A stretch of DNA of 64,000 bases from contig JAHDFY010000003.1 in the NCBI GenBank assembly GCA_020627925.1, positions 62,001 to 126,000 of the forward strand. The letters are read 5' to 3'. The notes below the pieces were generated by a model that saw nothing but the letters and a program-made list of their open reading frames with translations, did not search any database and had not been told where the DNA came from. Below are positions 50,239 to 62,097 of this stretch, piece by piece (the stretch's first letter is position 1; each line of letters starts with the position of its first letter). Position numbers and translations under genes: made by a program. The DNA comes from a bacterium (lineage in GTDB: Bacteria; Patescibacteriota; Gracilibacteria; Absconditabacterales; Absconditicoccaceae).

Positions 50239-50271
50239 TACTAATCACAAAAAAATATAAATCTGACTGCT

Positions 50272-50299
50272 ATCATAGTAATCACACCCATTATTGCAA
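50272..50299 (-). promoter_or_regulatory. Candidate glyS promoter
   Basis: Minus strand TTGCAA (-35), 16-bp spacer, TATGAT (-10). The ATG is 33 nt downstream of the -10 box. Confidence 0.5.
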
Positions 50300-50424
50300 T
50301 GTCATCATTGTCATTCACGTCTCTTCTATTGACATATTGAATATATTTTCATTTTTTTAAGTAAATATGACGAACAAGCGAAACTTTTTTATTTGAATTA
50401 GTAATCCAATTATTACAATATCAG

Positions 50425-50453
50425 AAAAACCTAGACGTATTGTCTAGGTTTTT
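50425..50453. terminator. Hairpin terminator in a gene-free region
   Basis: Perfect 12-bp stem AAAAACCTAGAC/GTCTAGGTTTTT with loop GTATT. There is no protein gene on either side that it must end, so it may belong to a small RNA. Confidence 0.7.
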
Positions 50454-50845
50454 CCTTTGAAAGAAGTATATATTGAGAAATGATAACAAAGAATGTGGTT
50501 GGCGTTCTGTCGCAAAACAAGAAACACCTTCATGATTTTTTCACCAACCTAATTACTGTTTTTATGTATATATCCATTAAATCTTTTGTATCAAAGTAAT
50601 GGTAACTTATCAGTGATTTACGATACTATATAGAGTAATAATACTAATATCGTTTCATAAATATATATAAGATTGTTACATTAGGTTTATCTATGTTATT
50701 GATCTTGGGGATCATAAACATATCTTGTGGTAATATAAAATTTACAATATATCATAAATTTTATAGTTGTACAAGCATATAGAAGACATTCCAATATAAT
50801 TTCTGTAACCCTCATTACATTATTATTTGGGCTCAACCATGTCCT

Positions 50846-50863
50846 GTATAGGTTTATACCTAT
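50846..50863. repeat. Inverted repeat TATAGGT-type, copy 1
   Basis: ATAGGT-TTAT-ACCTAT palindrome inside GTATAGGTTTATACCTAT. A close relative occurs at 51477, and CCTATACC occurs at 50971. Confidence 0.5.
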
Positions 50864-51476
50864 CATGTATCTTGAATTGGTTGATTACTACATTGTTCAT
50901 ATATCATGTTTTTTTGGTAAAAAAATGATTATGCAAGTAGAAATAATGTTGATATATGTGTATGTGAAGTCCTATACCTCACTAAATACATCAGACATAT
51001 GAATTCAAGGTCGTACATGAATACAGTCTTTTTTTATTTTTCTCGTCTATATATGATCTTCTTTCTACCACATATATCAGAAGTATCCGATCGATATGGT
51101 AGGAAAAAAAGCAAATGGGAGAGGTCAGCGATAAGTAATGGAGTAGTGCGTTGTAGTCACTTGCTACGTGTACCGACATACATATAACTAGGTAAGTGCT
51201 ATAACATATGCCTTATATGGATCCTATTCGAATAAGACAAATTGCTTCTACGCCTGTATACATGATTGATATAACGGGATATTAAGGTTTTGTATATCCG
51301 TTGTTGATAGAGTAATTGATTTTGAACAAATACTATGAAGTTAAAATAAAGTAACATTATAGGAACATGTTTACCAAAATTCTGCAGGAATTTTCTCGAA
51401 ACTGTTGTCTATAAAAACTTTTTTTTACAACGTAATATTTTGTCCTTAATTTTTGTTAGAGTTTTGTACGTTTCTC

Positions 51477-51492
51477 TATAGGTTTTATACCT
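51477..51492. repeat. Inverted repeat TATAGGT-type, copy 2
   Basis: TATAGGTTTTATACCT, differing by one extra T from the copy at 50846. It lies 80 bp upstream of the DnaA-box-like cluster. Confidence 0.45.
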
Positions 51493-51568
51493 TCATACAA
51501 AGAATTGTATTCTTGCATAACTTATCTATTTTCCACGTAATAATGCTTGAATAATTATCTATCAAGTG

Positions 51569-51606
51569 TTATACACAAAGCAATGTGTACAGATTATTGT
51601 GTACAA
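51569..51606. promoter_or_regulatory. Cluster of three DnaA-box-like sites (candidate oriC core)
   Basis: TTATACACA at 51569 (matches the consensus TTATNCACA). TGTGTACAG at 51584 and TGTGTACAA at 51598 are reverse-orientation near-matches (reverse complements CTGTACACA and TTGTACACA). They are spaced 15 and 14 bp apart, and the surrounding sequence is very AT-rich. Confidence 0.4.
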
Positions 51607-51990
51607 AGTTATTATTGGTGTCGACATTATGCCCAGTCAAGCGCTTGATCTCTCGTTAAATACGATTACAAGGGGTCGGGTGCTTTTCTAGTATTGCACA
51701 ATTGCCAATAGTATCTATGTAGACTCACAATAAACATTATTATCAATGACCGTCTTCCCAGTTGATATGATGACTTATTACCATCGATGTCTACAGGGAA
51801 GTCGACCAACATGCACAAGCAACTGGCTGCTAAATACTTTTTGAAGAGCTGCTAATGATGTAAAATGATTATACCACAATATTTCTCTATTTGCAAATTT
51901 TTGCATACTTTTTTTATATTAATATGTTTTTATTGCTAATAAAGTAGTTCTTCATTGTTGTTTTGTGGTTTCTTAAAAAGTCTGAATTAC

Positions 51991-52019
51991 TTGAATTTTA
52001 GAACAAAAAAACATATACT
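51991..52019 (+). promoter_or_regulatory. Candidate promoter of the 1165-aa protein gene
   Basis: TTGAAT (-35), 17-bp spacer, TATACT (-10). The first ATG (52039) is 20 nt downstream of the -10 box. Confidence 0.55.
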
Positions 52020-52038
52020 GTACATAGTTTTTATTCTC

Positions 52039-55000
52039 ATGACCTTTTTCATGAAAAAGCTTCTTTCTTCTGATCACAATCATGGTATTGTAAATAACAC
52101 TAACAACAACGCCAATAATACTGCAATAACTACCGCTGAGCAAACGCAAGTGACGTTTGAATATCCTTATGGAGACTTTCTTCCTGAAGAACCTAAAAGA
52201 ATGGAAGATGCGCTTCGTTTTGCTGTGGAAATGCAGTGACAGTACAGAAAGGCACAAAAGCTTGCTGCTGAAAATGGCATGGATTTTTCAGATAACGAGA
52301 AATTAAGAGATCAATTTAAGATAAAGCTTGAAAAATTGCATGATGTGATCAAAAAATCATCAGCTGCTCTTTTTTTGTCAAAAGACGGTTTTCCGCATAA
52401 TCCTAATGATATAGAAGAAAATTATGTAAAATTAAATGCCCATTACAGAAAGCAAATAAAAGATAACTCAGCAAATGAAGCCAATGCAATAAAAGCAATT
52501 ACATTAATTACCAATGCAAAAGAGTTACTACTTTCTCCTAATACAAAAGAAGTACTGAACAATATTAATCTCTATGCATTGGAATGAGACAATAACGTAA
52601 ATCAGCCAAAGGAAGATCCTTATAAAGAATCAAAAACATGAGCACAATGAGGAACTAGGAGTGATTTCCTTAAACAAAATGCTACTGATCTTGATTTTGA
52701 AGAAGTGATAGACCCAAAAGAAAAAAAAGATTCTCTCGATGCAGAACAAAAAACAGTTGACACAGACACAGATAACACCAAATCACATGAGCCCAATTTT
52801 GTCATAGTAGATACACCAGAAGACGAATCAAATAAAGAAGAGCAAAAGGCAGAAGCAATTTCAGATAGCAAAATAGGTGAAGAACAAACGACAAATAAGA
52901 AAAAAAATAAGAAAAAATCGAAAAAGAAGAGCAAAACATATGAACCAAATTTTATTATGGAAGATTCTCCTGAAGATGAAGCAAAAAATAACGAAAAAGA
53001 GGAAGAAGAAGACGTAAAAGCAGAGGCAGCTTCGGACAATAACACATACAAACAGCAAACAAAAACAACCAATACCAACGCCAACAAAAATACAACAAAA
53101 GCAAATAATGCCAAAACAAATACTAACAGTAGCACAAAGAGAGCAAAAAAGAAAAGCAATGCTACTCATTTTTCTGATGCAGCGGGAGGAGAGTATGTTG
53201 ATTTTGAAGAAGTATCATCAACCAACAGTACCAACCAAAAAGCAAAAGATACTGACTCACAAACTACTAAGCAACGAGCAAACACAACCAAAACCAATGT
53301 GGATAATTCTGTAGATAACTTGTCTGATGACATGGTAAAAAAGGAAGTTGCAAGAATTATGGCTTTGGCAGAAGAAAGGTTTAGTAAAAAAGACATTCCT
53401 CGTTCGGCAATTAGAAACGAAGCTCTAGCACTTGCTAGATTAGAAAATGCTATTGCTGAAGCGGCAACAACAGGAGAATCACAAATTCAAAAAGCAGTTG
53501 CAGAAAAAGTAGCGTCACAGCTACACACATTGCTTGAAAATATCGATGCCGCAGCGATGACAAGAGCGTGGAAACACAAAAACACCATTGCAACAAACTT
53601 TACTATAACGGTCTGTAATCTAACTGACGATCTTCGCGGGTCATTTGCAAATCATGATGAAACGTTGGCAAATAACTACAGAAAACTTATTGCACACGCA
53701 CCATTTGAATCATTTACCGATAATGAGACAAATGTAGCAAACCTTTCTCAGCTAATCGACACAATTGCAAACAATACCGCAATGGAAACCTATCATAAAT
53801 TGAGATGTTATATGATAACAGAACGAGGATTGTTCAACGTAGACGTCAACGAGCCAAATCAAGATACTCTCTTTGGTTCGTACATGAGACTTGCTGATCT
53901 ACGATGGACAGAATGAAAAACTATCAATGAGGATGCTGCCAAAAAAAGAGTTGCTAGATTATTCAAAGAAATGAAAAGAAGAGCAAACAATGGAGCAAGC
54001 CTTTACAAAAATCATATGGAAGCTTTTGCTAATAAACATAACTTGAGTGACCAAGAAAAATTAGATCTTTTTGGTGCGCAACAAGCAATGAGTGATATGG
54101 CAGAAGGTGAGCCAAAATACATGCATATCAAAAAAACCAAAAATGGCGACAAAGAATCAAGAATACTTTCACTACAACAAGATGAATTTGCCACTAGCAG
54201 ACGTGAAGTGGGGGAAATCATTCAAGACAGTCCTAATTTTTTCTATTGCAAACCTCTCAAAGGTAATACCAATGAAATTATCGTGGTAAGTAAAGCGACA
54301 GGAAAAGTTGTCGCTCCTCATCTGACCAAACATGGCTATCAAAAAGATCTCGATACAAAAGATCACGGTCTATTACTTGTTTCAAAAGCAGGGGATACGA
54401 ACGCAATGAGCGTTATTACTAGTGAATGAAAGGAAATTTTGCCATTTGCGTTTACAAGCATCAATGTTGTCAAAAACACCGCAAAACCAGAAAATTCACT
54501 GATTGTAGCCAAAGATCAAGATGGTGAAATTTCTGTATTCGATCTCAAAGGGAACACCTACCTCAAAGGAAAAAATATTACTAATGTTGCTTACAAACCA
54601 GGAAGAGGATATGAACTACAAGCAAAAGGTTTTTGGGCAAAAATCACCAAAGGAGAAGCAACAACTTACTACCTCAATGATGATTTGCAATTTATGAAAA
54701 AATGAGCAGATGGGCAATTGAGAAAAACTTGAGTAGGAGGAAACCCAGCCAATCAAACCATGATGGGAAGAGTAACAACAGAAGTAAAAAATTTCTTCAA
54801 GCAATGATTTGCTGATTTGGCAGAATATCCTTCGTTAGTCAAACAAGCATATAAGGATATGAGTGGAGAAAGAGCTCCTGCTGAAGAAGATGATGCGCCA
54901 ACAAAGGAATCAAAACCGCAACAAGAAAAAGCAAAAGAACCAATTCCTGTAATTGTGGAAGATGCTGAGCCAACACCTCAAAAAACGAAACAACCAGAAA

Positions 55001-55536
55001 AAAAGAAAGAAGAGGAAAAGAAACCTAAAGCAAAGCAAGATGACAACAAAAGTAAGGAAAAAACCGAAAAAAAAGAAAAAACCGAGGCAGTCCTTACCTA
55101 TAAATGAGATAATATTACCATAGGCTCTCATACTATAGATTCTACTAAAATCATTAGATCAGATCTAAAAAAATTATCTAATGTTGGTTTTGTTTTTGGT
55201 GATAACCTTACAAGAAAATGAACAGGTGGACAAGCGTGAGAAATGAGAGGAGAACCTAATGCTTTGGGGGTAGCGACACTTCACGAGCCAGGAAAACCAT
55301 TCAAAGACGATACACTAAAGCAAAATAAAGAAAACATAGATAAGGATTTTGATAAAATACGAGATTATATTAAATCATGAAAACCAGTCGTATTTCCCAA
55401 AGATTGAGTGGGAACGTGAATAGCAGATCTTGCAAAAAATGCGCCTAAGACACTTGAATATATCAACAAAAAAATTGATCAAGCAAAAAAGCACATGCAA
55501 GACAAAGGAATGATAAAACAAACAGCTACCGCCTAA
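52039..55536 (+). CDS. Giant low-complexity protein with C-terminal phage-type glycine-rich domain
   Basis: A 1165-residue protein; about fifteen TGAs are Gly. Order: short Asn-rich N-terminus; helical region (about 60-185); a very charged Lys/Glu/Asn/Thr-rich linker (about 190-430) with twice the motif EPNF(V/I)(I/M).(D/S)(T/S)PED; a folded alpha-helical region with RSAIRNEALALARLENAIAE; a beta-rich region with IVVSKATGKVV and ISVFDLKGNTYLKGK; a second charged Lys/Glu/Pro linker; and a C-terminal 130-residue domain. That domain reads NVGFVFGDNLTRKGTGGQAG then RGEPNALG, which I recognise from phage and bacterial proteins of unknown function. No signal peptide is visible. Start ATG 52039 (or 52051) follows a good promoter. 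Confidence 0.75.
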
Positions 55537-55584: not shown

Positions 55585-58500
55585 TTACCTAAAGACGCTC
55601 AGTGCTTTCTCAATCGTTGAAGCTGTTTCTCCATTATCTATAAGCATTTTTTTCATAATATTTTTTGATTCATCTTCGGACATTCAACCATGTTTCATCA
55701 TGGATTTTTTTGTGGTGTGTACAAGTCTTTTGCTTATCAAGAACTCAAGAGAAACCTCACGACCAAGAATTTCTTGCAGAAGAGGCGTCATCTCTCCAAT
55801 AGCGGCATCTCTGGAATCCTTATCAACAAATTCTTTGAGTGTACATGCAATGGCATTATTGTTTGTCATTCCTATTTCGACTCATGAAGGGTCTTTGAGT
55901 CAGAGTCTTTGTTGAAGGGCTACTTGTAGCCATATTTTTATGAATTCTTGTTTTTCTGTTTCATTGTTTAGTGCGCGGTATTCTTTGAGTAATGCTTGGT
56001 GAGCAACAGAAGGTTCTTTACGTAATGTTTGTTGCACATGCTTCAGTATTTTTTGCTTTTCTGTTTGCCCTGTCCAGCTTTCTCGTAGATAATTTACTCC
56101 GTAATATCCTCCCGCGATCAGTGCTGCCAATCAACCAGCTCTCAATGTTGCTTTGGTCGCAAACTGCTTGCTGTGTTTCCACAAAGAAGCACTATCTTGT
56201 GCCAATAGTTTGGGTAATTGACTGCTATGTTTTATGAATGCATGTGATCAATATACTGCATTTTTTGCAAATTTTCCTACTGATTCAAAAGGTTCTGCAA
56301 ACATCCACAACTTACTTCTTGCTGTTTTTGCATTCATCACGACTCGGCCATCATAAGCAAAGGTCATAGCACCAAATGACAGAGAAGTATAATCAATAGG
56401 CTTGTCTGCACTGAAGTTGAGACTTTCATTGATAAGCATGACTGGACCAACAAGAGGCATCAGACTTCCCATTCATTTTGCTACAGTCATTGCAATATTC
56501 CCTTCTGGATTATGGTGAATCTCGTGCAACACCTCTTTCCCAACCAAAATAATGGGTGCATTTTTGAGTAACGTAGCCGCCGCATGAGGTGCTTTGTCTA
56601 TAAGGTACCCCATTTGCTCAAAATATTTTTTTGCATCATCAGCAGTTTCTAAATAAAAACTCATTTTTTGACTGCTGTCAGGTATGTCTGCCAGTTGATG
56701 TGCGAGTGCACGTCTCTTAAAGGACTTATATCATGGAACAACATCAATAAGTTTTGTATTGACAAGTTCGCCATACGTGTTTGCAAGTGATCTGTATTGC
56801 TCGACAAACTCCTTTCTAAATGAAGCTTTGGAGTAGGAAAATCCTTCCATTAATTCATCTTTCATTTGCCCAAAAAATCATTTTCTTACTTCTGTAATAT
56901 TTGCTTCTGCCGTTGCTTTCATATAGTTAGAAAGCTGTTTTTTGTAATTAAAGTGTGATGCCTCGATATCGATATTGTTATCTTTGAGATATCTTTCAAA
57001 AGAATCAGTTGGAATATTCGCTTGTTGCATTTTTGCTAAATAGTCTTGATAGCTTTTTTTGCCTGCATGAGTCTGTGATCAGGCAACATTACTAGAATAA
57101 GCATTAAAAAGCATATTGTTTTTGAGCTTTTTACAGAAATCTGAAGCCTTAGTACCATGCGTGTCTTTGAAAAGTCAGCCATCTTTCATCGATTTTTCTC
57201 GTTCTTCAAGTAATGCTATTTGTTTGTCAACATCTCCCATGATTCACCCTTTCCAGTAAGCAGTCAGTTGGTCTGTTTCAATTCATCACAATAGGGTTGA
57301 AGTAACAGAAGCACTAGCGCGTCACAGAGAAGAGAGAATATCGGTGATAATACCTCCATGTCTGTAGAGCGCTCACCATAGAATCATACGGTCATTCGTA
57401 TCAATATTCATATCAGAGACGGTTGCCGCAACTTCCTCCAGAGACATTGCTCCAAATAGGTTTTTGGCTACCGATCAAACAAAGGTTGTTCCTTTGAGTG
57501 CAAAATTGAATAAATAATGACCTCTATGCAACACTGATGTCACTGCAATATCTTGTGGTGCAAAAAATCATGCATTGATACAGCGAACCATCAAATCTCC
57601 TCAAGCTTTTGCAGGAAGAGCAAGAGTACTGATAATATTGCTGATCGTATGAAATTCACTTTCTCCTGTTTTTTGATTTTCAAACTCCTCGCTTAAATTA
57701 TCCAAATGAGTACCCAATGCATCTTTGTGATCTTCATACCATTCGGAAAAAACACGAGAAAAAGATGCATCATGAATGGTTTTTCATGTTGCTTCTTCAA
57801 TTCTTTTTTTATAAGCGGGCATGACAACTTGCTGAAATATTTCCTCTCTTTTTTGTTGCAATGCTTCTTGTTGTTCGGGGCTAATTGCCACATTATCGAC
57901 TGATCAAGCGACCTCATCTACTGCATCCCTTGCTGATTCTGTAAGATCAGTTTTGATATCCGGAAATAGATCACAAAGTCACAAAGCACTAATCGATTGC
58001 AATTGTTGTAAGAGAGCAGCACCTCCCAAGAGCGAAAGAATAGTTCATTGTGTTCGGTTTCTCCACCTTGATGTTTCTTTTCCACTCGCTTTATCTTTTG
58101 CATATTGACCAACACCAAGCGTTTGAAACACAAAGCGACCATACCAGGTCTTTTTCTTTTTTTCCAAGAATTCGTCTACGGCTTTGTTGGCTAATTCATT
58201 TTTTTTATCCAATAATTTTTGTTTTGCCTCTTGGGGTGTCATGAGATCCGCTGATGATCATGGCGCTACATTATTTTGCTGATTGCTGTTGATTTGCGTC
58301 GTTCTTACTGTTTGCTCAAATTCCTTCAAACTTTCATCAAACTGATCAGCAGAATTTTTTAATGCTATTTTTTTCTCTTGATCAATATAAACAAAATGCG
58401 AAGAAAGGTGGTGTTCCACTACTTGCGACAAAATTTGCAGGTCTTTTTTATCTAAGAAAAAATGAGGCTGACTGCTTTCCAGTCTTTGCTTGAGCGAATT

Positions 58501-58725
58501 CATGTGAGACTTCGATTCTTGATTGGGAAACGTTGCATTTCATCTACCCAAACTCTCAATGAAGTCTGTCATATCTTTTTTTTGCTCTTCGTTGAGTTGC
58601 TGATTCAAAGAAACATTTTCTTGCAAATAAAAAAGAGTTACCTTTATTCTTTGAAACAAAGATTCTATTGATTGTTCTTTTTCTTTCATTTGTCTTGGTG
58701 TTTCCAAATGAGTGTTTGCTGTCAT
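55585..58725 (-). CDS. Giant hypothetical protein (1046 aa), possibly membrane-associated
   Basis: An uninterrupted 1046-residue frame with about 20 TGA glycines and no TAA or TAG. The N-terminus is soluble and coiled-coil-prone (LFQRIKVTLFYLQENVSLNQQLNEEQKK). Mostly helical, charged sequence follows, with hydrophobic segments near LLGGAALLQQLQSISALGLGDLF, MPLVGPVMLINES and AALIAGGYYGVNYL. No signal peptide or known domain is visible. It begins 24 bp after its upstream partner of similar size and style, so the two are one transcription unit. Family not recognised; probably clade-specific. Confidence 0.7.
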
Positions 58726-58749
58726 CACAAACCAATAACACAAAATAAA

Positions 58750-61700
58750 TTATTCCATACGAATTGCTCCTTCATAATCATCAGCGTTCCAATATTCATG
58801 CACTGCATCTATCCCAGATTCAATCATCCCTGTTTCATAAAAAACATAAGCAATATCCGCCATCCCCAAAAGCCTAAATCTCACAAAATCAGTGAATATC
58901 TCTCCTGCATGCTCTGCTTGCGAATAAGACAATCACAGCATGAGAGAATTTGCAATCATGGATGTTCACGATACTCCTCCTAGCGCTGCTCTCAAGAAGT
59001 TATGCGGCGTTTTTTCTGCCCAAAATTTCTTTGAAGCTTCCCAAAGATCACCATATGTTGCTTTTTTGAGCCATTCCTTTGTAACTCCAAGCATGTGTTG
59101 AGTTTTTTTTCAAGCAGGGGAGTCAAACCGAGCAATACCTAGCTTTTGGGCCAGTGGCGTTTTGATCCCACGAGCATGAGAGGTAAATTTCATAAACGAC
59201 TGATCGAGTTCTTTTACTATTGATGCTTCAAAAGAAGCAGCAATGTTGCTGATTTGCGCTTCAGAAAGAACGGATCAATCTTTTGCTGTCATACGAATTT
59301 GTTTGTTATCTCAGAGACTTATTTTGTACGTTTCTTTACCAACTTTTATTTTTTTTCAGTGAAGCTGGTGGATAGTATCTGATCATAAATAGCTAAGACG
59401 GCGCACCCAAGCATGAGCCATTCATTGCGGACTTTTTTTAAGCTCTTTTTGTATCGCATCTAGTACTTCTTGTTTTGATGAATAGACCTTGTTTCCATGA
59501 GCAAACTCCACATGATAGCTGCTTCCTTGTTTACCTATACGAATTGTATCGCTAATTGGTACAAAGCTGCCATTGTCGGGAAGTGCATCAATTTCTTTTT
59601 CAAGCCTACGAGTAACTGTTTCGACCATCCCTCCATAAAGATCTTTGTGAATACCTGCCTGCAATGATTGCAATGTTTGTATATATTCGTTGGTTTGGGC
59701 GTAATCAGTTTGCAATGCTGCATATTCTGCTTTTTCCTTATCAGAAAGTTGTTGTATTCATTTTTTTTCTAATACTTGCTGTTGTTGTATATTGTTTTGT
59801 AGAGCAGTATTTTTGGCTGTAATCTCTTGTGCCATTTGTTTTTCATAAAGAGCTTTTTCTTGTCATATTTTTCTTTGTAATTTGTTCCACAATTTATCAG
59901 CTTTTGCTTCATTTCCTAATAGACGCAATTGCTTGATTTTGTGCAATTCTTTTTGTACATGACTAGTTAGTTGGTCAGATACTCCCAAAAACTTTCTTGG
60001 TATGTTTTTGAGTGATGCAGTGAGCGGTCACATTTTTTGTAAAGCAACAGGGAAAAACGCAAATCATAAATTACTGAAGACGGAAGTTGTTAAACCAAAT
60101 TCGTGTTCACTGACATGTGATCTGAGTATATCTGCAGCAACACCAGTCCCAGTATACAAACCAATCTCCTTGAGCAAAAGGTTTCTTGCGAGTGAGTTAG
60201 ACAGTTGGTAAGCTTTTGATACGCCATGAGCCACTCTCAAACGTTGAAATTTTGATGCAATTCCCAACGGGACAGCACCCATAATTCCTTCTATTGCATA
60301 CTCTGACCATAAGTACTCTCTCCCATCGATATAGGACATTGCATGAGAAGTTGCTACGCCAGCCATTCATCATACAGCCAAAGGAATTCCCGCTCCACTC
60401 GCGATACCGCCAGAAGCAATCGTCAAAGCAACTCAACCTATCACACAAACACTAGCACCACCAATACGTATCCAGCGGTCTTTTTTATCATTGTTGAGGT
60501 CAAAAAATCATTGCGCCCCAATAATATCTGCAAAATGTCACAACGCTTTGCGCTCTTGAGTTGTCATAGAAAAATTATCTTTTGCTTGATATATTTTTTG
60601 TATTTGCTCAAACAAACGATGTTTATAGGAGTCATGTAGTGCGGCGTAGGACTTATCAAAAATAGCAACCGCTTCGTATCATTGTTTTCATTCATCAGGA
60701 GCAATAAGCTGCTCGACACCATATGTCTCGACAAATTGTGAAACGAGAGCAACCTCATGCGCATTTGTATGTTGTTTGATATGTGCAAAAACTTCATCGA
60801 CACTTGGCTCAGGAGGAATGGCATAATCTTTTGCTTTTTCTCCATTATTGTTCAATAATTGTTGCACAAAAGGTAAATAGAGAGATTTTGCCACCGTGGT
60901 ATTCCTCAAGTTCTTATTTAGCTTAAAGGCAAAAGCATCAGCAATAAACAAATACATATCATTGATAGTCGTTTCCCAATCAGATTTTCGTTGTTTTTCC
61001 TCTTCATTTGTTGGAGTAAACGATGCGAATTGTTGCTGTACAGATGAAATACTAGGAAATAAACCATTTTTTCCATCTGTTCCATAGACTGCTTTTTGTA
61101 TGTCTTGCATTGCGGTAGCGACATTGCTGACTCTCATCGTGCTATAACGATCAACAGTTGAGGTAAAATTAGCAAACTGTTTGTTGATCGAGTGAGTCAA
61201 TGAAAGAATTTGTTGCGATTGTTGTTCGTGTTCTTTTTGCTTATCTACTATTCAAATCCCTGTTTGTTCAAACGATACATCACCTGTCGGAGCTGTCGCA
61301 TTTTTATGATTGTTAGGAGGAGCGGGATTCCATGATCAGTATGAAGGAGGAATAGGAACATTAACCGATGATCATTCCGTTGGTTGTGTTTGAGGAGTTT
61401 TCACTTTTCTTTCTATTGTTTCATGGTAGATTTCTTTGACTGATTTTTTCTCTTTGTAAAGTTTTTTGTACAATCGAGCGATACTTACTCATCATCATAA
61501 CCACATAGCCATTTTTTTGAACTTGGAAAGGAATCATTCGTCTTCTGCTTTTTCCAAGTCGTCTTGCGTAGGGGTAATTGCGTCTTTTGTTTCACCTGCT
61601 TGATCATTTTCTTTTTCTGAAGATCAAAAATATGATTGTATTTTTTTGATTGCATTATAAGCAAAGAACGCACTTCCTCACCATTTTGCTACAGTCCAGA

Positions 61701-62097
61701 GATTTTCCGTAGTAAAATAGTCAGTTCGTTCTTTTGTCTTGTTATATATTCCTTTGGGAGCTCCCAGGGGAGTTGCCTGTTCATTAACTGCATTATTAAG
61801 TCTAATATGGAGCTCATAATTATTGATTTCTTGTTGTTTTTTGGAAATTTCTGTTTGTGAACTAACGTTCTTCAGGTCATCAGTTGTTTGCTCTTCGATG
61901 TTATAGGATTGTGCTACAAATTCTGCATTGTTAATATTTTCATCATGATGGAAATCTTGATTTATTTGGTCAATTTGCCTAGATTCTGGTGTTGTTTCTT
62001 TCTTTTTTTCTTTTGATAATCAAGAAATTTCTGCTGCATGGCTTGCATGAGCAGCAGGTAACAAACGTTCCGTACTAGTAGATCAAGATTTTCCCAT
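58750..62097 (-). CDS. Giant hypothetical protein (1115 aa) with hydrophobic centre
   Basis: An uninterrupted 1115-residue frame with many TGA glycines, including three consecutive TGA codons at about residue 200. Order: disordered N-terminus (about 1-130, Ser/Thr/Glu/Asn-rich); a hydrophobic patch (TVAKWGSAFFAYNAI); a Lys-rich stretch; a Pro/Asn/Ser-rich linker; a long helical domain (from about 300); then Gly/Ala-rich hydrophobic segments (GGMAGVATSHAMSYIDG, IEGIMGAVPLGIASKF) and a second helical domain with repeated KEKAEYAAL-type heptads. It ends with DYEGAIRME. No family recognised. The next gene, at 58725, is similar in size and composition. Confidence 0.7.

Follow-up and report, generated by a model that had tools for sequence, protein, structure and literature searches.

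A phage-type DUF7831 domain at the tip of a large orphan protein from a code-25 bacterium of the Absconditicoccaceae

The stretch of 64,000 nucleotides analyzed here (hereafter "the window") contains, at positions 52039..55536 of the + strand, a gene for a protein of 1,165 amino acids with a glycine-rich motif near its C-terminus. A sequence-only reading had linked this motif to phages, placed the protein at the cell surface and considered a toxin- or effector-like layout. The locus thus raises the question of which family the C-terminal region belongs to, and what it may do at the end of such a long polypeptide in a tiny, probably host-dependent bacterium that reads TGA as glycine.

Reading frame and C-terminal domain

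Translation of the + strand at 52039-55536 with table 11 encounters 15 in-frame TGA codons, while in code 25 (TGA = glycine) the frame is open for 1,165 codons and ends with a TAA stop, exactly at the coordinates and with the length reported earlier. At the composition of the window (35% G+C) a frame of 1,165 codons would stay open by chance with a probability of ~1e-15, any start position being counted. TGA accounts for 15 of the 59 glycine codons, which is inside the range of the neighboring genes, and the third-position G+C resembles that of the neighbors. The gene is present in one copy in its genome. It is preceded by ~1.8 kb (50251-52038) lacking a convincing coding frame, which seems long given the compact genome.

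It is close to certain that the C-terminal domain (residues 1036-1144, ~110 aa; 55144..55470, + strand) is a member of DUF7831. Its E-value against the Pfam model PF25176 is 2.9e-34, and its score of 117.9 bits, over model positions 5-117 of 118, exceeds the curated gathering cut-off of 27; it also matches phrog_2072, which has no annotated function. Both motifs quoted in the sequence-only reading proved exact, FVFGDNLTRKGTGGQAG corresponding to residues 1051-1067 and RGEPNALG to residues 1070-1077. An alignment of 35 sequences reveals two conserved loops. Loop 1, FGDNxxRxGxGGQA (residues 1051-1067; 55189..55239, + strand), has invariant F, G, D, N, G, G and A; loop 2, PKDGVGTGIADL (residues 1120-1131; 55396..55431, + strand), has the invariant G1125. 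All family-invariant residues (FGDN, R, G-GG-A, R, GxG) are kept in the window copy, which shares 23-46% identity with viral and bacterial members.

Three of the TGA codons (55219, 55405 and 55417), the last two encoding G1123 and G1127 of loop 2, fall on DUF7831 columns that have glycine in 34/34, 30/34 and 32/34 relatives, respectively. Because these codons coincide with glycines of the relatives, the recoding is proved within the domain itself, and the conserved glycines of a phage family provide a clean internal proof of it. The anonymous motif has thereby acquired a family name: the tip of the protein is a real, named, phage-type domain, and DUF7831 has a new setting in this large protein. 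In the literature library searched, no paper names the family.

Predicted fold and its comparison with known folds

The AlphaFold model of the window domain is a confident, compact alpha/beta domain (pLDDT 91.1), and that of the member from Hymenobacter (pLDDT 95.4) is likewise a confident, compact alpha/beta structure, with four strands; in both the order of elements is beta-alpha-beta-alpha-beta-alpha-beta-alpha. A compact C-terminal domain is therefore predicted, and the expectation of a folded end in the sequence-only reading stands. In the models loop 1 comes after strand 2 and loop 2 (PxDGxGTGL) after strand 4, and because of this topology the two conserved loops should share one edge of the sheet, where ligand pockets usually lie. 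In a Foldseek comparison with viral models the window domain matched that from Caulobacter phage Seuss (E 1.2e-12, TMq 0.76, rmsd 1.3). The Foldseek search of the PDB gave no significant match (best E 1.6 for the window model and 0.095 for the Hymenobacter model), and the weak matches lean toward tyrosine-phosphatase and rhodanese folds.

Two assignments to known fold classes deserve consideration. DUF7831 might be a minimal, divergent macrodomain (PF01661) that binds or hydrolyzes ADP-ribose derivatives, as the order of its motifs (Asn, then GxGGxA, then GTG) is loosely like that of the macrodomain glycine loops, a phage macrodomain is among the highest TM matches outside the family (TMq 0.47 to the window domain, insignificant), and NAD-salvage genes are neighbors in some phages. 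Sequence profiles, however, lend it no support: hhalign against 29 macrodomains scored 11.9, i.e. at the null mean (12.4 +/- 2.4), hmmscan gave no Macro match for 35 DUF7831 members at E-values up to 10, and none is among the PDB matches listed, so that we regard this assignment as distinctly unlikely. As to the strands, the Hymenobacter model has four and the macro fold six. Membership in the rhodanese/tyrosine-phosphatase (PTP) fold class with a cysteine-less phosphate loop we also find quite improbable. PTP/DUSP structures are the recurring top Foldseek matches of the better model, they recur together with rhodaneses for the other model too, and a related idea has been published for the phage family DUF4326, tied there to ADP-ribose metabolism (PMC9503650); but the matches are not significant (best E 0.095, TMq ~0.3, rmsd ~8-9), and the 35-sequence alignment has no conserved Cys that could be the catalytic one. 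Given the profile and structure comparisons, we do not file DUF7831 as a macrodomain, SLOG or phosphatase.

In the comparison with the SLOG/LOG profile (PF03641), whose motifs are GGxxGxM and PGGxGT, only one loop (PGGxGT-like) aligns, with a score of 20.0 against a null of 13.3 +/- 2.6 with a maximum of 20.2. DUF4326 (PF14216) and other phage families of ADP-ribose processing resemble DUF7831 in their spread among jumbo phages and giant viruses, and a counter-defence role has been proposed for them (PMC9503650), but DUF4326 is a separate family with no detectable sequence match. A search for DUF4326 seeds in the phylum yielded none that were usable.

DUF7831 in phages and in the Absconditicoccaceae

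The sequence-only reading was right to link the C-terminal motif with phages: 93 phage records contain DUF7831/phrog_2072 relatives, most of them from phages of Caulobacter, Rhizobium and Brevundimonas and many from jumbo phages, and 34 viral contigs contain them as well. Further relatives are found in 6 plasmid records and in three bacterial contigs, namely of Hymenobacter, Hellea and an armatimonadote. Predicted viral structures additionally place the domain in the giant viruses Hyperionvirus, Tupanvirus, Yasminevirus and mimivirus, and in large proteins of uncultured phages. The usual member is a standalone protein of ~130 aa from a large, mostly alphaproteobacterial phage, whereas the window copy sits at the tip of a cellular protein of 1,165 aa, in a bacterium that uses code 25. 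DUF7831 is joined to a large protein also in a phage DNA polymerase B, but there it is internal, with the exonuclease domain before and the polymerase domain after it (L007:3879-6998; the same arrangement, judged by sequence, is seen in L024). In a Hellea MAG the DUF7831 gene (L039:7974-8980) overlaps a gene for a proteasome-type peptidase, and a protein with a Lon substrate-binding domain is encoded upstream.

Analysis of 38 loci, in raw counts that include near-identical and closely related phages and have no background rate, shows rIIA or rIIB within 5 kb of DUF7831 in 11 loci, CCA-tRNA nucleotidyltransferase in three, NAMPT with NadM-Nudix in two, and RtcB in one. Annotated phages show the same pattern: in CcrRogue the DUF7831 gene comes directly after the rIIA-rIIB pair, in Bajun and Domovoi it follows the equivalent genes, in MD18 it is near the CCA enzyme, and in a Mesorhizobium phage near RtcB, NAMPT and NadM. 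A position near, and often just after, rIIA-rIIB was noted in phages at L125, L127, L129, L006, L009, L011-L014, L018, L021, L025, L026 and L030.

In the phylum, 379 other genomes were sampled, and the Pfam model detected DUF7831 in none. Better profiles, applied to 353 genomes of the class, yielded two convincing carriers, the window genome (E 2.8e-43) and G029 (E 1.2e-28), a member of another genus of the same family; weaker matches in the class are short and partial, and we take them as chance. The G029 protein has 460 aa and scores 62.3 bits, above the Pfam cut-off. Like the window protein it carries DUF7831 at the C-terminus behind a long K/E-rich linker. The N-terminal parts of the two proteins are unrelated, that of G029 being common to other proteins devoid of DUF7831, and the DUF7831 copy of G029 has insertions beside both conserved loops. 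The N-terminal family of this protein is found also in G014, where it is followed by a coiled-coil-like tail, and in G024, where it has no tail. Because one N-terminal family ends differently in these genomes, DUF7831 behaves, as far as domain architectures tell, as a portable tip in the Absconditicoccaceae. This N-terminal family is represented at L134, L135 and L069:9946-11328, with three C-terminal ends (DUF7831, coiled coil, none).

In the unconstrained tree the window and G029 copies fall into different phage clades, while a tree that joins them is slightly better than the unjoined one (p-AU 0.557), so the tree is compatible with one capture as well as with two and does not fix the position of the window copy. 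Synteny with G029 via the giant neighbor proteins was rejected, as no homology was found. At least two genera of a CPR family that uses code 25 have cellular proteins into which this phage domain has been fused. The direction of transfer, from phage to bacterium, is assumed from the distribution.

The orphan protein and the possible role of its tip

The ~1,020 residues ahead of DUF7831 are orphan sequence: the whole protein has no counterpart in the 58 relatives searched, residues 427-956 have none among 287 other genomes of the class, and searches of Pfam, NCBIfam, PADLOC and PDB sequences returned nothing meaningful beyond DUF7831. The layout proposed earlier, with charged linkers separating three regions, is largely borne out: two charged linkers poor in hydrophobic residues (about 186-426 and 940-1020) alternate with three regions of higher hydrophobicity, of which the C-terminal one is compact. 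The N-terminal region (residues 38-185; 52150..52593, + strand) is largely helical as predicted by eye, has no Pfam match and is an orphan; its weak candidate relatives in G015, G028 and G006 turned out on inspection to be unrelated genes, including a UDP-GlcNAc epimerase and a glycosyltransferase, and a J-domain at residues 100-185 found no support. The middle region (residues 427-925; 53317..54813, + strand) is likewise an orphan, with length and composition that fit one or more folded domains; WG/beta-propeller repeats at residues 728-897 were considered and found no support.

Linker 1, delimited by hydropathy and composition (52594..53316, + strand), contains two kinds of repeated motifs. 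DFEEV occurs at residues 219-223 (52693..52707, +) and 388-392 (53200..53214, +), and between these copies there are two of a longer repeat, EPNFVIVDTPEDE (residues 251-263; 52789..52827, +) and EPNFIMEDSPEDE (residues 302-314; 52942..52980, +), with the consensus EPNF(V/I)(I/M)(V/E)D(T/S)PEDE. The K/E/P-rich linker 2 (54856..55098, +; from the composition map) contains a related motif, EPIPVIVEDAEP (54937-54972, +). From 52693 to 54972 short acidic-hydrophobic repeats stand out amid otherwise disordered-looking linkers; they may be docking motifs. The other predicted proteins examined on contig C3 gave no match to the EPNF-type motif or to DFEEV.

The code-25 gene therefore encodes an intact DUF7831 head behind ~1,020 residues of orphan sequence, which include two charged, flexible linkers. 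Our preferred, though tentative, explanation is that a captured phage domain binds or processes a phosphate-bearing, nucleotide-type ligand at the end of a flexible intracellular tether. DUF7831 would have come into the lineage from phages, in whose gene pool it may serve as a standalone early or counter-defence-type protein, and would then have been fused to a lineage-specific protein. The two glycine-rich loops on one sheet edge would form the pocket, whose phosphate-bearing ligand would probably be of the nucleotide or ribose type; the rest of the protein would tether the head inside the cell, its folded regions and repeated linker motifs recruiting partners. The bacterial role might be the sensing or processing of a metabolite or end group, for defence or nucleotide/tRNA repair, rather than a task outside the cell. 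This explanation is based on the family membership, the proof of the code at conserved glycines, the retention of invariant residues and the confident fold in two members, and on the phage neighbors, the lack of a signal peptide or transmembrane segment, the chromosomal setting and the linker-plus-tip layout shared with G029. The ligand-handling part follows from the predicted fold, the conserved residues and the phage neighborhoods; as there is no significant match to a solved structure, the ligand class is guessed from the two loops and the gene neighborhoods.

A delivered effector, i.e. a long protein exported to or into the host bacterium with DUF7831 as an active tip that manipulates it, is in our opinion unlikely, even though the long flexible stalk with a small C-terminal domain fits it, the N-terminal family of the G029 protein has varying ends across genomes, predation or epibiosis has been described for other members of the class (PMC8080830, PMC11393006), and Patescibacteria have a conjugation-type secretion system (PMC12102498). 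The best 19-residue mean hydropathy of the protein is 0.81, at residue 148, and neither a signal peptide nor a transmembrane segment appears, because of which the surface placement in the sequence-only reading is unsupported, although leaderless secretion is compatible with the missing signal peptide. The toxin- or effector-like layout suggested there may still apply: the single-copy gene has no secretion signal, no paralog with another tip and no meaningful PADLOC match to anti-phage defence systems, and one related architecture, that of G029, supports a modular tip. With respect to polymorphic toxins, the N-terminus and middle are orphan, and neither a gene for immunity or secretion nor a polymorphic-toxin marker was recognized beside the gene. 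Moreover, phage DUF7831 proteins are mostly standalone with repair-type neighbors and presumably act within the infected cell. It is highly unlikely that the fused domain has been domesticated as a non-catalytic binding or structural module devoid of a nucleotide role: the orphan scaffold with linker motifs and the insertions beside both loops in the G029 copy would agree with it, but the window copy retains all invariant residues, which suggests that the pocket is still used.

Returning to the preferred ligand-handling domain, a bolder form of it, which we consider very doubtful, holds that DUF7831 is a so far unrecognized class of domain handling nucleotide- or ADP-ribose-type ligands, employed by large phages against the defence of their hosts and captured by Gracilibacteria-type bacteria as a swappable tip of tethered proteins, for their own defence or for attack on host cells. 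With a confident predicted fold that has no significant solved counterpart and with recurring phage neighbors (rII, tRNA repair, NAD salvage), DUF7831 moves from a blank to a testable candidate for counter-defence chemistry.

The region around the gene is ordinary chromosome, with genes for gyrase B, DnaK, the CCA-adding enzyme, cysteinyl-tRNA synthetase, a class II tRNA synthetase, peptidases, redox enzymes and a sodium/proton antiporter. A prophage origin was rejected, as the proteins scanned in the region yielded no phage structural gene. The polyvalent proteins of phages and conjugative elements (PMC5512222) are likewise large and multidomain, with a phage-type domain, but the window gene is chromosomal, lies in a housekeeping region and has no other recognizable polyvalent-protein domain. 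Downstream of it and convergent with it, two giant uncharacterized proteins are encoded in tandem on the - strand (55585-58743 and 58750-62097). The first (1,052 aa) belongs to a family present in six other genomes of Absconditicoccaceae, one of them with a weak partial match. Its long relatives in five other genomes each have another large, mostly unrelated protein upstream, and in two of these (L070 and L071) an NlpC/P60-type hydrolase follows.
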